A DNA stretch of 64,000 bases. Source: Larkinella humicola (GTDB taxonomy: Bacteria > Bacteroidota > Bacteroidia > Cytophagales > Spirosomataceae). A model generated the notes under the pieces. The model had not been told where the DNA came from. It ran no database searches and saw only the letters and a program-made list of their open reading frames with translations. Made by a program: the position numbers and the translations under genes. Of the stretch, positions 56,280 to 60,499 are shown in pieces. The stretch covers positions 1,612,001-1,676,000 of the forward strand of contig NZ_VTWS01000001.1 in the NCBI RefSeq assembly GCF_008727875.1. The letters run 5' to 3'. Numbering within the stretch: the first letter of the stretch is position 1; each line of letters opens with the position of its first letter.

Positions 56280-56813
56280 ATGACGCGCTTTGAATTTTTA
56301 AAATCATTAGGCTTTTCCGGGGCGGCCCTGCTGGTTGCCATGACTTCCTGCATCCACGAAGAGGACACGGTGGTGGATGCCCTGACCCTGGCGGGTCCGC
56401 AAAGCACGACTCCTGCTTCGTCGACCACCGCCACGCCCAGCAGCGGTACGGTGACCACCCCAGGCACAAGCACCACCACATCTGGTACCGATCTGAGCAC
56501 GATAGCCAGCCGCCTGTTAACAATTGACCTGACAAGTTCGGCAGCAACTGCCCTGAAAACCGTCGGGGGTTACCTGGCCCAAAGTGGCATTGTTGTCGCA
56601 CAGGTCAGCGCAGGGGTATATGTCGCAGTTACACAAACCTGCAGCCATGAACCCAAGAAAAAAATCATCTTCAACAAAACTGAGTTTTACTGCACCGAGC
56701 ATGGGGCCCGCTTCGACTTGACCGGCAAAGGCAAAAACAGTTTTGGCAGCAAAGGCATCACCGTCTACAAAACCGCCACCGACGGAAAAACGCTGGTTGT
56801 TTATAATTCGTGA
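56280..56813 (+). CDS. Rieske-type 2Fe-2S protein, exported
   Basis: 177 residues. An N-terminal leader with a Cys (LLVAMTSCIHEED) may be a lipoprotein signal. A Ser/Thr/Pro-rich linker (residues about 40-70) follows. The Rieske cluster motifs are C-S-H (QTCSHEPKKK) and C-T-E-H-G (YCTEHGARFD), giving the two Cys and two His ligands. It would carry electrons in the periplasm. It precedes the thioredoxin-ApbE-DUF4266-DUF3570 run by 41 nt. The preceding 230 nt hold a small hairpin (56245-56262, GGGTAG/CTACCC) and no gene. Confidence 0.8.
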   Translation: MTRFEFLKSLGFSGAALLVAMTSCIHEEDTVVDALTLAGPQSTTPASSTTATPSSGTVTTPGTSTTTSGTDLSTIASRLLTIDLTSSAATALKTVGGYLAQSGIVVAQVSAGVYVAVTQTCSHEPKKKIIFNKTEFYCTEHGARFDLTGKGKNSFGSKGITVYKTATDGKTLVVYNS

Positions 56814-56854
56814 ATCCCAACACGCCCCTTTTTCATTCATCCAACTAAAAACCT

Positions 56855-57301
56855 ATGAAAGTCTTCCTTTTATCCGTCCTGGCGTTCTTCGCCGTGTCGG
56901 CCCCCCAGTGGCAGCTCAACCTGGATCAGGCAAAAGCTGAAGCGGAAAAGAGCCACAAACTGATTTTACTTAATTTTTCGGGTTCCGACTGGTGCGGACC
57001 GTGTATCAAATTAAAAAAAGACATTTTCGAATCCGAAGCCTTTCAGGTATTTGCAACGGATCACCTGGTGCTGGTACGCGCCGATTTCCCACGTCTTTCC
57101 AAAAACAAACTGGATGCCCGGCAGGAAGCTCATAACGAGGCACTGGCTGAAAAATACAACAAGAAGGGAAAATTCCCCTTTACGGTTCTGCTCGACACCA
57201 GCGGACGGGTATTGAACGAATGGGATGGCTATTCGCCGTCCATGACAGCATCGTCGGTCATGGCGTCTATTCAGGCGGCAAACGCCGGGCAGAACGAATG
57301 A
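56855..57301 (+). CDS. Periplasmic thioredoxin-like protein
   Basis: 148 residues with a signal peptide (about 1-17). The redox block FSGSDWCGPCIKLKKDIF carries the C-x-x-C motif and KFPFTVLLDTSGRVLNEW the cis-Pro region. It belongs to the thioredoxin_7-like group often found with DUF3570 genes. It probably keeps cysteines of the neighbouring proteins reduced. The stop overlaps the ApbE start (ATGA). Confidence 0.9.
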   Translation: MKVFLLSVLAFFAVSAPQWQLNLDQAKAEAEKSHKLILLNFSGSDWCGPCIKLKKDIFESEAFQVFATDHLVLVRADFPRLSKNKLDARQEAHNEALAEKYNKKGKFPFTVLLDTSGRVLNEWDGYSPSMTASSVMASIQAANAGQNE

Positions 57302-58263
57302 AATCCGCCGGACTTCTTCACCAGCGAATCCAGCGACTTATGGGGAATCGCTTCGAATTGAGCGTCGTGAGTCCCGACGCTGACTGGGCCAACGCCTGCA
57401 TCGATGCGGCCATTGCCGAAATTAGCCGCATCGAACGGCTGTTGACCACTTTTGACGAAGGTAGCCAGACCAATCAGATCAACGCTGGCGCAGGCATCCG
57501 GGCTGTTCCGGTCGATCCGGAAGTCTTTGCACTCATTCAACGGTCGCTGCGGCTGTCGGCCCTGACCCAGGGCGCGTTCGACATCACCTACGGCTCGATC
57601 GACAAACGACTCTGGAACTTTGACACAACCATGACCGCGCTACCCGATCCGAAAACCGCCCGGCAGATGGTGCGGCTCATCAATTACCGCAACGTGGTTC
57701 TGGACGAAAAGAACACCACCGTGTTTCTGAAAGAACGGGGAATGCGGATCGGTTTTGGCGGGATTGGAAAAGGGTATGCTGCCGAACAGGCAAAGCGACT
57801 CCTGCAATCGCTGGGCGTCGGAAGCGGCATTGTCAATGCCGCCGGCGATCTGACCACCTGGGGCCTGCAACCGAACGGCGAACCCTGGACCATCGGCATT
57901 GCCGACCCGGACGCGGCCCGAAACGCAACCGCCGGACGGGCCTTTTCTTACCTGAGCATCAGCAATATGGCTATTGCAACCTCGGGTACGTACGAAAAAT
58001 ACGCCATGATCGGCAATCGGCGCTACTCCCACACCATCGATCCGAAAACCGGCTATCCGGTTTCCGGGATTAAAAGCGTGACGATCATCGCCCCCAATGC
58101 CGAGTTGGCCGATGCCCTGGCTACGCCCGTGATGGTGATGGGCGTCCGGGTCGGGCTCGATCTGATCAACCAGATGCAACACCTGGCTTGCATCCTCATC
58201 GATGACCACGATCACGTGTATACGTCAACCAACATCCGGCTGGTCAAGTCGGCGACTCTCTGA
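57298..58263 (+). CDS. apbE: FAD:protein FMN transferase (ApbE)
   Basis: 321 residues from the ATG overlapping the thioredoxin stop; a longer frame from 57220 lies inside the thioredoxin gene. ApbE uses FAD to attach FMN to a Thr/Ser of extracytoplasmic redox proteins. Family blocks: MGNRFELSVVSPD, GAFDITYGSI, MRIGFGGIGKGYAAEQAKRL, NAAGDLTTWG and GYPVSGIKSVTIIAPNAELA with the metal-binding Asp. No N-terminal signal or lipobox is clear, which is unusual. No obvious FMN-acceptor gene is present in the window. Confidence 0.92.
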   Translation: MKSAGLLHQRIQRLMGNRFELSVVSPDADWANACIDAAIAEISRIERLLTTFDEGSQTNQINAGAGIRAVPVDPEVFALIQRSLRLSALTQGAFDITYGSIDKRLWNFDTTMTALPDPKTARQMVRLINYRNVVLDEKNTTVFLKERGMRIGFGGIGKGYAAEQAKRLLQSLGVGSGIVNAAGDLTTWGLQPNGEPWTIGIADPDAARNATAGRAFSYLSISNMAIATSGTYEKYAMIGNRRYSHTIDPKTGYPVSGIKSVTIIAPNAELADALATPVMVMGVRVGLDLINQMQHLACILIDDHDHVYTSTNIRLVKSATL

Positions 58264-58291
58264 AAACCACTCTGACTTGTTTTACTTACCT

Positions 58292-58522
58292 ATGCTAAAC
58301 CAACGAATCATCCCCGCAACGAGGCTGGCACTGGCGCTGCTTGGCGCAGGCCTGTCGGGCTGCGTCTCCGTCAAGGAATACCAGAAAAGCCGCATCAACG
58401 ATGCCGACATGGAACTCTCAGCACGAAAATCAGAAAAGTTTGAGCAGAATTTTTACCTCTACCGCGAAGGTGCAGCCGGTGCCAATGGCGGAAAAAGCGG
58501 AGGAGGCTGCGGCTGTAATTAA
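58292..58522 (+). CDS. DUF4266 small lipoprotein with C-terminal Cys-Gly-Cys
   Basis: 76 residues from ATG 58292. LGAGLSGC is a lipobox; VSVKEYQKSRINDADMELS and NFYLYREGAAGANGGKSG are DUF4266 blocks; the chain ends in a Gly-rich tail GGGCGCN. It is always encoded with DUF3570 in the genomes I know of. The C-terminal CGC could bind metal or a cofactor. The next gene starts 8 nt later. Confidence 0.85.
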   Translation: MLNQRIIPATRLALALLGAGLSGCVSVKEYQKSRINDADMELSARKSEKFEQNFYLYREGAAGANGGKSGGGCGCN

Positions 58523-58530
58523 CCACCCCT

Positions 58531-59730
58531 ATGAAAAAAATCTGTCTGTCCGTTGGCTTGCTGCTGAGCCTGATGCGGACCGGGTATGCGCAGGAAGCTC
58601 CTGCCTACGAAAAGCGGAAACTGAAGGTGGAAGAAATCAACCTGGTATCGAGCTACTATGAACAGTCGGGCCAGAATTCGGCCGTAACCGGCGGCATTGG
58701 TTCAGAATCCCTGCGCGATTTTGCCCAGTCGCTCGACGTGGTGCTGACTACCACCGACCGGCAAAACCGGCGGCACAGCCTGGTTTTCGACCTGAATATT
58801 GATCACTATACTTCCGCTTCGTCCGACAAAATCGACCCACTGACGATCTCGTCGGCCTCCCGGAGTGACACGCACGTGTATCCGTCGCTGTCGTGGAGTA
58901 TGCGCGACGACGTCCGGCGGGTTACCAAAGGCATTTCGTTTGCTTATTCGACGGAGTATGATTACAAGTCTTACGGTGTGAGCGTCAGTTACAGCAAGTC
59001 GTCGGTCGATAACAACCGGGACCTAACGCTGAAAGCCGGGGCCTTTTTCGATACCTGGACGGTAATACTCCCCGCCGAACTCCGCCCTGAGGGCTACGGT
59101 TCGGGGGCAGAAGGTGACATGGACCCGGTTGACCACAAACCGCGTAATTCCTACAACGCCAGTGCGTCCGTTTCACAGGTGATCAACAAACGTCTACAGG
59201 CTTTTTTGACGCTCGAACCCTCGTTTCAGCAAGGGCTCCTGAGCACGCCCTTTCACCGGATTTATTTCAATGAAGGTTCCGAAACCGTTGAACGATTGCC
59301 GGGTTCACGCCTGAAACTGCCTCTCGGCCTTCGCGTCCATTACTTCCTCGGCGACCGCGTAATCATTCGTTCGTTCTACCGGTATTATGCCGACAATTGG
59401 GGCATGCAGGCGCATACCGTCAACCTGGAAACGCCCATCAAGCTGACCTCCTTCGTGTCCATCAGTCCATTTTATCGCTTCAGCAAACAGACGGCGGTTC
59501 GGTATTTTGCCGCCTACGGCCAACACGCCACCACCGAGCGGTATTACACCAGTGATTACGACATCTCGGGGTTTACCAGCCAGTTTCTGGGTATGGGCAT
59601 TCGGCTGGCTCCGCCGGGCGGTTTGCTTGGCATCAACCGCTGGCAGAGCGTCGAACTCCGCTATGGTCGCTACAGCCGCAGCACTGGCCTGACGGCCAAC
59701 AGCGTAACCTTGCTGGCGAAGTTCAAGTAG
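58531..59730 (+). CDS. DUF3570 outer-membrane protein
   Basis: 399 residues with a signal peptide (about 1-20). The body is beta-rich with alternating aromatic residues, for example FDLNIDHYTSASSDKIDP and YNASASVSQVINKRLQAF, and it ends VTLLAKFK, so a barrel is likely. The SSYYEQSGQNSAVTGGIGSE start of the mature chain is typical of DUF3570. It is part of the thioredoxin-ApbE-DUF4266 operon and may form the outer-membrane element of a redox or metal-handling system. Confidence 0.87.
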   Translation: MKKICLSVGLLLSLMRTGYAQEAPAYEKRKLKVEEINLVSSYYEQSGQNSAVTGGIGSESLRDFAQSLDVVLTTTDRQNRRHSLVFDLNIDHYTSASSDKIDPLTISSASRSDTHVYPSLSWSMRDDVRRVTKGISFAYSTEYDYKSYGVSVSYSKSSVDNNRDLTLKAGAFFDTWTVILPAELRPEGYGSGAEGDMDPVDHKPRNSYNASASVSQVINKRLQAFLTLEPSFQQGLLSTPFHRIYFNEGSETVERLPGSRLKLPLGLRVHYFLGDRVIIRSFYRYYADNWGMQAHTVNLETPIKLTSFVSISPFYRFSKQTAVRYFAAYGQHATTERYYTSDYDISGFTSQFLGMGIRLAPPGGLLGINRWQSVELRYGRYSRSTGLTANSVTLLAKFK

Positions 59731-59869: not shown

Positions 59870-60499
59870 ATGGAAGAAAGTGAAATTCTAGCCAAACTGC
59901 CTCTGGTTTTCACGGAGTCGGCACTTCGTCAGGAAATGCTGACCCACGGAAAATTCCTAAAAGTTAACAAAGACGATACCCTGATTCGGGAGGGGCAATA
60001 CCTGGACTTTCTGCCCATCGTCATCAAAGGCGAAATCCGGGTTTTCCAGCAAAAAGAGGATCGGGAAATTCTGCTCTACTACGTTCGGGAAGGCCAGACG
60101 TGCATGATGTCACTTTCAGCCGCGTATTTCAACCACACCAGTTCGTCCTACGGGGTGGCCACCAAACCGTCCGAAATTTTCGTTTTTCCCACCCGGCTCG
60201 TCAACGAATGGCAACTGAAATATTCTTCGTGGAACGCCTACCTGATCCAGACCTTTCGCAGCCGCTACGATGAATTGCTGGGATCGTTTGAAAGCGTCGC
60301 GTTTGATCCGATCGACAAACGGGTTCTTTCTTACCTGACCGAGCGGGCCAAAAAAGAAAATACCGCCCAAATTGCCATTTCGCACCAGAATCTGGCGTAT
60401 GAACTGGGCACCACCCGGGTGGTTATTTCCCGCATCCTGAAGGGGTTTGAACAGCAGGGCAAAGTCAAATTGTTCAGAGGTTCAATTCAGCTAAAATAA
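59870..60499 (+). CDS. Crp/Fnr family transcriptional regulator
   Basis: 209 residues. An N-terminal cyclic-nucleotide-binding-type beta-roll (IREGQYLDFLPIVIKGEIRV, FQQKEDREILLYYVREGQTC) and a C-terminal winged helix (ISHQNLAYELGTTRVVISRI, LKGFEQQGKVKLFRG). The beta-roll lacks the full cAMP-binding Arg-Ser pair, so the effector is unclear; GQTCMMSLSAAYF contains one Cys. It precedes the exported DsrE gene by 78 nt and may regulate it, since regulators of this type commonly sense redox state or sulfur species. Confidence 0.92.
   Translation: MEESEILAKLPLVFTESALRQEMLTHGKFLKVNKDDTLIREGQYLDFLPIVIKGEIRVFQQKEDREILLYYVREGQTCMMSLSAAYFNHTSSSYGVATKPSEIFVFPTRLVNEWQLKYSSWNAYLIQTFRSRYDELLGSFESVAFDPIDKRVLSYLTERAKKENTAQIAISHQNLAYELGTTRVVISRILKGFEQQGKVKLFRGSIQLK

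Follow-up and report, generated by a model that had tools for sequence, protein, structure and literature searches.

A conserved ApbE gene cluster of Larkinella humicola with DUF3570, a predicted outer-membrane beta-barrel, as the probable flavin acceptor

A 64,000-nucleotide stretch of the Larkinella humicola genome (hereafter the window) was analysed, in which five co-directional genes encode, in this order, a Rieske-type lipoprotein, a thioredoxin-like protein, the flavin adenine dinucleotide:protein flavin mononucleotide (FMN) transferase ApbE, a small DUF4266 lipoprotein and a DUF3570 protein. Judged from its sequence, DUF3570 is most probably the acceptor of this ApbE and carries a glycine-less variant of the known flavinylation motif. 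The whole explanation, in which a flavinylated DUF3570 barrel would receive electrons through the thioredoxin and DUF4266, was given a probability of roughly 0.6. An initial annotation of the window had described a close, co-directional extracytoplasmic redox operon; gene calls and Pfam searches confirmed this, and the arrangement was found to be conserved across 48 loci.

DUF3570 as the acceptor of ApbE

That ApbE flavinylates members of the DUF3570 family has been demonstrated (Méheust et al. 2021, eLife, PMC8238504). In Chlorobium luteolum, both [S/T]GA[S/T] sites of DUF3570 were reported to be flavinylated, and both Ser-to-Ala changes were needed to abolish the modification (PMC8238504). 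The view of the initial annotation that the operon lacks a flavin acceptor could therefore not be kept, since both acceptor serines are retained in the window protein. Its suggestion that DUF3570 or DUF4266 was an unrecognised acceptor was right as to DUF3570, although the family was not unrecognised, having been published in 2021. DUF4266, whose tail was checked for CGC only and may carry other modifications, was ruled out as the main acceptor, given that the substrate role has been demonstrated for DUF3570.

For comparison, 105 DUF3570 sequences were aligned, comprising 83 from Bacteroidia (47 closest and 36 wider), 16 from family f74 and six from other families. Family f74 was taken as green sulfur bacteria (Chlorobia), because its genomes carry the green-sulfur Fenna-Matthews-Olson protein (11 of 11 genomes tested; no match in 14 control genomes). 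These genomes often hold several copies of DUF3570, with up to nine matches per genome. The 105-sequence version extended an earlier alignment by 16 sequences. A further alignment, A1, left out 16 of the 82 listed relatives as well as L041 and L083; the latter is a partial contig, and L041 was excluded from the DUF3570 counts. In L041, a Spirosoma metagenome-assembled genome, the DUF3570 gene (L041:7989-9203) is split by an in-frame stop, which is either real or an assembly error.

In the alignment, D91-HYTSA-S97 of the window protein stood opposite D-x-x-[ST]-G-A-S of the green sulfur sequences, and S107-S-A-S110 opposite their SGAS, which put the predicted acceptor serines Ser97 and Ser110 at places homologous to the green-sulfur sites. 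Gly occupied position 95 in every f74 sequence (16/16) and in none from Bacteroidia (0/83; 82 Ser, 1 Thr), whereas Ala96 and Ser97 were fixed in both groups (83/83 and 16/16, 99/99 together). Asp91 was present in 47/47 of the closest sequences. Ser110 was found in 47/47 closest and 35/36 wider Bacteroidia sequences; five of the 16 f74 sequences had no letters at site 2. Among the six proteins of other families, Ser97 was present in four and the position was a gap in two (L137 and L140). Two strict [S/T]GA[S/T] motifs were not found in the window DUF3570, which has TSAS and SSAS. Without the motif glycine, which is missing from Bacteroidia DUF3570s, this acceptor is easily overlooked.

Gene linkage was examined in the window and 47 relatives. 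Resemblance to the DUF3570 of the window was the criterion for choosing the relatives, which means that DUF3570 was present by construction and that the group was biased to close relatives. ApbE and DUF4266 were each found in 48/48 of these loci, a separate thioredoxin gene in 47/48 and the Rieske gene in 45/48; the only locus without a separate thioredoxin was L079, in which it is fused to ApbE. The gene order across the 48 loci is not due to chance. ApbE adjoined DUF3570 in all 48 and in a further 20/20 loci. In the window, the thioredoxin stop and the ApbE start overlap in ATGA, and the gaps from ApbE to DUF4266 and from DUF4266 to DUF3570 are 28 and 8 bases. Seen from DUF4266 (n = 29 matches; 16 of the 29 3.1-kb loci were kept after duplicates of loci already sampled were dropped), DUF3570 lay within 1.5 kb in 28 cases and ApbE in 26. 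DUF4266 was also present in 44/44 other DUF3570-positive Bacteroidia genomes. Relatives of DUF3570 with 42-44% identity were carried by two Hymenobacter plasmids (NZ_CP095067.1 and NZ_CP010056.1).

Predicted fold of DUF3570

The AlphaFold2 model of the window DUF3570 (66 relatives) was all-beta, with a predicted local distance difference test score (pLDDT) of 88.1 and a predicted template modelling score (pTM) of 0.81; that of the green-sulfur L152 DUF3570 (27 sequences) had a pLDDT of 81.9 and a pTM of 0.81. By DSSP, both models contained 16 strands when adjacent short strands were joined manually, and the N-terminus of DUF3570 was signal-like in hydrophobicity. These predicted features agree with those of outer-membrane barrel proteins, which form closed antiparallel barrels with an even number of strands and have a signal peptide. 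The models indicate that DUF3570 is very probably a 16-strand outer-membrane beta-barrel. Alignment of the model with barrels by VIA-align gave Z values of 15.7-21.6, the top row being itself a model, with 20.3 for 4y25 and 18.2 for BcsC (6tzk).

Outer-membrane barrels with periplasmic termini have long loops after odd strands and short ones after even strands, and in known barrels these long loops either point out of the cell or fold inward into the lumen. The mean gap after odd strands was 13.5 residues in the window model and 14.8 in the L152 model, and that after even strands 5.4 and 3.6, respectively. Both flavin sites lay between strands 3 and 4 (loop 95-111 in the window protein; 86-110 in L152, with Ser88 and Ser109 by count). 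By this pattern, the flavin loop would either lie on the outside or reach into the lumen.

The shared barrel fold is uninformative on function. No electron-transfer barrel was named among the 50 Foldseek matches listed, which does not mean that no such match exists, and a sequence search of solved structures gave no useful match to DUF3570 (one at E 0.59). The words 'barrel' and 'porin' are absent from the main text of PMC8238504.

ApbE and the place of flavinylation

The initial annotation had regarded an ApbE lacking catalytic residues as damaging to its view. In the alignment, the Ser257-His273-Asp301 triad of Listeria FmnB has its counterparts in Ser229, His245 and Asp272 of the window ApbE. 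In 84 cluster ApbEs, the His column was invariant (84/84), Ser was present in 81/84 (Ala in L117-L119) and Asp in 72/84; the Asp column was Gly in 12/12 green-sulfur cluster ApbEs (from L141-L154). Despite this green-sulfur Gly, a Chlorobium ApbE of the DUF3570 system was reported to be active (PMC8238504). In L117-L119 (family f3), enzyme and substrate both deviate, with Ala for the triad Ser in ApbE and ASAS and S[ST]PS in DUF3570.

Signal peptides were judged by a Kyte-Doolittle hydrophobicity window of 10 residues with a cut of 2.0, not by SignalP. In the closest set, thioredoxin (47/47), DUF4266 (46/48) and DUF3570 (45/48) passed this cut, and the Crp regulator, at 1.85, failed it. Only 4/20 DUF3570s of L135-L154 passed, owing to poor start choice; with another start choice, 12/14 of those from green-sulfur L141-L154 did.

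By this measure, 46 of the 48 closest-locus ApbEs had neither a hydrophobic N-terminus of their own (at least 2.0) nor a fusion. The exceptions were L072 (2.2, only from a TTG start) and L079, whose ApbE follows an exported thioredoxin in one fused protein. In the tree, the signal-less Bacteroidia ApbEs, L121 excepted, formed one clade of 56 rows (support 99/99), the green-sulfur ApbEs formed a separate clade, and three L. humicola paralogues stood on very long branches; the signal-peptide labels were assigned manually, with L072 counted as lacking one despite its 2.2 from the TTG start and L139 as having one despite 1.93. Counted from the thioredoxin stop, the frame of ApbE was 0 in 8, 1 in 33 and 2 in 26 of 67 junctions; with all three frames in use, a fusion of thioredoxin and ApbE through read-through or frameshift was rejected. 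Cytosolic ApbEs acting on cytosolic targets are known (PMC12052999). The simplest reading is that the DUF3570 precursor may be flavinylated in the cytosol ahead of export.

Alternatively, flavinylation might be periplasmic, with the window ApbE exported without a recognisable signal or an exported ApbE of another locus acting instead. The four other L. humicola ApbEs had signal-like N-termini by eye. The cluster ApbE passed the hydrophobicity cut in 9/20 further Bacteroidia loci and 3/16 others, and thioredoxin and ApbE form one exported protein in two lineages (L079 and L133). From these exported fusions, and from the exported ApbEs of some families, it follows that flavinylation takes place in the periplasm as well within this system. 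Among 18 Bacteroidia genomes, an exported cluster ApbE was commoner in those with an FMN_bind protein (5/6) than in those without (3/12; Fisher p 0.043, uncorrected for kinship). However, the near-uniform lack of a signal or fusion in the closest loci and its complete lack in the green-sulfur loci (0/12 pass), the single supported clade, the junctions in all three frames and the precedent of cytosolic ApbEs make periplasmic flavinylation the less likely reading for the window protein.

Partner proteins and the proposed electron route

The carriers of the proposed chain are present and conserved. The thioredoxin had W-C-x-P-C in 67/67 proteins and an N-terminal hydrophobic segment in 47/47 closest loci. 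The GGGCGCN end of the DUF4266 lipoprotein, pointed out in the initial annotation, was verified, and the C-terminal CGC was found in all 86 DUF4266 proteins (80 CGCN, 4 CGCG, 2 CGCAK); conservation of this tail and of Thr/Ser sites in DUF3570 had been named there as checks. The C-x-H...C-x-x-H pattern was present in 48/49 Rieske proteins, the exception being the weak match L117. The Rieske gene occurred in 45/48 closest loci, 4/20 other Bacteroidia loci (including the weak L117 without the motif) and 0/20 others; the Rieske lipoprotein is thus a clade-specific fifth partner. A search of solved structures with the Rieske protein gave none at E 0.01.

In a published cluster, ApbE and DUF3570 are accompanied by DsbD, by a thioredoxin of PF13899 and by a DUF4266 protein that has a conserved C-terminal CXC; 316 such DUF3570 clusters are without DsbD (PMC8238504). 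The window cluster resembles these 'DsbD systems' in its ApbE, DUF3570, Thioredoxin_7 and DUF4266 CXC tail, but differs in being headed by a Rieske lipoprotein, in having Ser for the motif Gly and in its signal-less ApbE; the word Rieske is not in the main text of PMC8238504, the supplements being outside this statement. The initial description of an uncharacterised system therefore holds as to an extracytoplasmic redox operon and fails as to its novelty, because the cluster including its CXC tail was published in 2021. It is a known system in variant form; a barrel with loop-side flavins, a signal-less ApbE and a Rieske partner were not found in the literature searched.

In the proposed mechanism, ApbE would attach FMN to Ser97 and Ser110 of DUF3570, both on the long-loop side of the barrel. 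A DsbD-type protein, whose gene lies elsewhere in the genome, would bring electrons out of the cytoplasm and hand them to the exported thioredoxin. The thioredoxin would reduce the CGC dithiol that the DUF4266 lipoprotein bears on its flexible, glycine-rich tail, and this dithiol would in turn reduce the barrel flavins, which would pass the electrons on to a cell-surface acceptor, perhaps metal ions. In this clade, the Rieske lipoprotein would serve as an additional carrier. We infer the sequence of carriers and the direction of transfer from chemistry and from what has been proposed in print, and give the route from DsbD to the outside an even chance. One DsbD_TM protein was found in the L. 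humicola genome, on another contig (C14), and a DsbD-type family lay near 14 loci, 11 of them green-sulfur.

A more specific form of this mechanism is a heme-free outer-membrane conduit, in which cytosolic ApbE would load two FMNs on the unfolded precursor, with D-x-x-[S/T]-S-A-S as the Bacteroidia motif. The loop-2 flavins would lie in or above the lumen and be reduced from the periplasm by the CGC tail of DUF4266 reaching into the barrel. We put this form forward tentatively, as the lesser chance. In porin-cytochrome conduits of the MtrCAB type, an outer-membrane barrel likewise helps electrons to cross; the window cluster differs in having no heme protein, and its cofactors would be covalent flavins and dithiols.

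It is also conceivable, though we consider it rather unlikely, that the cluster serves outer-membrane metal handling or thiol upkeep and not outward respiration, with the barrel passing or sensing metal ions and the flavin/thiol chain setting their redox state. VIT1-type genes were found near 7 loci and metal-efflux resistance-nodulation-division (RND) genes near 11 (BLAST families, one member of each checked by Pfam), and PMC8238504 reports 25 clusters that contain VIT1. On the other hand, most of the 87 loci had no VIT1 or RND neighbour within ~9 kb, and none was recognised beside the window cluster. Flanking-gene families in this comparison came from BLAST clustering, and only five proteins were given Pfam names.

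Observations against the proposed acceptor and other acceptors in the genome

Several observations speak against the acceptor assignment and the mechanism built on it. Strict D-x-x-[ST]-G-A-[ST] was found in 0/83 Bacteroidia DUF3570s versus 16/16 green-sulfur ones. Asp91 was replaced in 14/36 wider Bacteroidia sequences; at site 2 an Asp stands four, not two, residues ahead of the serine motif; and L117-L119 have ASAS and S[ST]PS, with Pro at position 109. The flavin loop was the least certain part of the models (pLDDT below 50 at 106-110 in the window protein and 88-109 in L152). The Foldseek matches were outer-membrane barrels with template modelling scores of only 0.38-0.51 among those listed, no solved barrel being close. 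DsbD is not in the window cluster, and a signal-less ApbE fits an exported substrate poorly unless flavinylation comes before export. An FMN_bind protein was present in 9/44 DUF3570-positive Bacteroidia genomes. In a fumarate reductase model substrate, a Gly-to-Ala change lowered flavinylation to ~50% (PMC12052999). In the same substrate, flavinylation was hardly affected when the Asp was lost (PMC12052999); with half of the flavinylation left after the Gly change and the Asp loss being minor, flavinylation at a Gly-to-Ser site appears plausible.

The initial annotation had also stated that it would be refuted by a standard FMN-bind acceptor encoded elsewhere and strictly co-occurring with this ApbE. 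The profile search gave no FMN_bind (PF04205) match in the L. humicola genome, and 35 of the 44 other DUF3570-positive Bacteroidia genomes had none. L. humicola has five ApbE, two DUF2271, one DUF3570 and one DUF4266. One DUF2271 is naturally fused to ApbE (contig C17, L037:355-1890, ~512 aa), so that enzyme and substrate are one chain, and has the Gly-less SITSAT where the other has AITGAS. The latter is encoded on contig C15 (L155:6401-13045) with a PepSY_TM/flavodoxin/NAD-binding reductase and a major facilitator superfamily transporter; with an exported ApbE ~3 kb away on the opposite strand, they make up a PepSY-type flavinylation set. This system resembles the window cluster in pairing ApbE with an acceptor other than FMN_bind, but its acceptor domain, DUF2271, is small and soluble and takes its electrons from a PepSY/flavodoxin reductase in the membrane. 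DUF2271 need not be the substrate of the window ApbE, as both DUF2271 genes are near or inside other ApbE genes.

That Bacteroidia DUF3570s lost flavinylation along with the motif Gly, their ApbE serving another, unrecognised acceptor, would agree with the absence of the site-1 Gly from all 83 sequences and with the strict ITGAS kept by one L. humicola DUF2271, but it is improbable, as the acceptor serines and Ala96 remain constant in an otherwise variable loop, ApbE keeps its place beside DUF3570 throughout, and the fusion shows the same Gly-to-Ser change, so that a Gly-less site persists even in a protein that unites enzyme and substrate.

Features of the cluster

The features are collected in Table 1. 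The Crp/Fnr-type regulator and an upstream bestrophin were rejected as cluster members, as they had no relatives above the 60-bit cut in the 47 related loci.

Table 1. Coordinates of the cluster genes and sites in the window
Feature	Positions	Strand	Remarks
Rieske-type [2Fe-2S] lipoprotein, 177 aa	56280-56813	+	Pfam Rieske 25.6 bits (cut-off 20.3)
Rieske ligand pattern C121-x-H123 ... C138-x-x-H141	56640-56702	+	
Rieske protein, lipobox-like MTSC			near residue 24
Thioredoxin-like protein, Thioredoxin_7, exported	56855-57301	+	Pfam 49.9 bits (cut-off 27); WCGPC; signal-peptide-like N-terminus
ApbE FAD:protein FMN transferase, 321 aa, without signal peptide	57298-58263	+	Pfam 274.9 bits (cut-off 25.6)
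ApbE triad codon S229	57982-57984	+	
ApbE triad codon H245	58030-58032	+	
ApbE triad codon D272	58111-58113	+	
DUF4266 small lipoprotein	58292-58522	+	Pfam 71.9 bits (cut-off 27)
DUF4266 Gly-rich tail GGGCGCN	58499-58519	+	
DUF3570, predicted 16-strand outer-membrane beta-barrel, likely ApbE acceptor	58531-59730	+	Pfam 98.4 bits (cut-off 25)
Predicted flavinylation site 1, D91-H-Y-T-S-A-S97	58801-58821	+	putative acceptor Ser97; Ser95 in place of Gly
Predicted flavinylation site 2, S107-S-A-S110	58849-58860	+	putative acceptor Ser110
Crp/Fnr-type regulator	59870-60499	+	adjoins the cluster downstream; not a conserved member

Implications

Acceptors with the Gly-to-Ser motif escape scans for [S/T]GA[S/T]. 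If an ApbE without a signal peptide serves an exported substrate, covalent attachment of flavin ahead of export would join the routes already known. If the barrel flavins face outward, many aerobic Bacteroidota and green sulfur bacteria would move electrons to the cell surface, by a route that would be invisible to searches for multiheme cytochromes.

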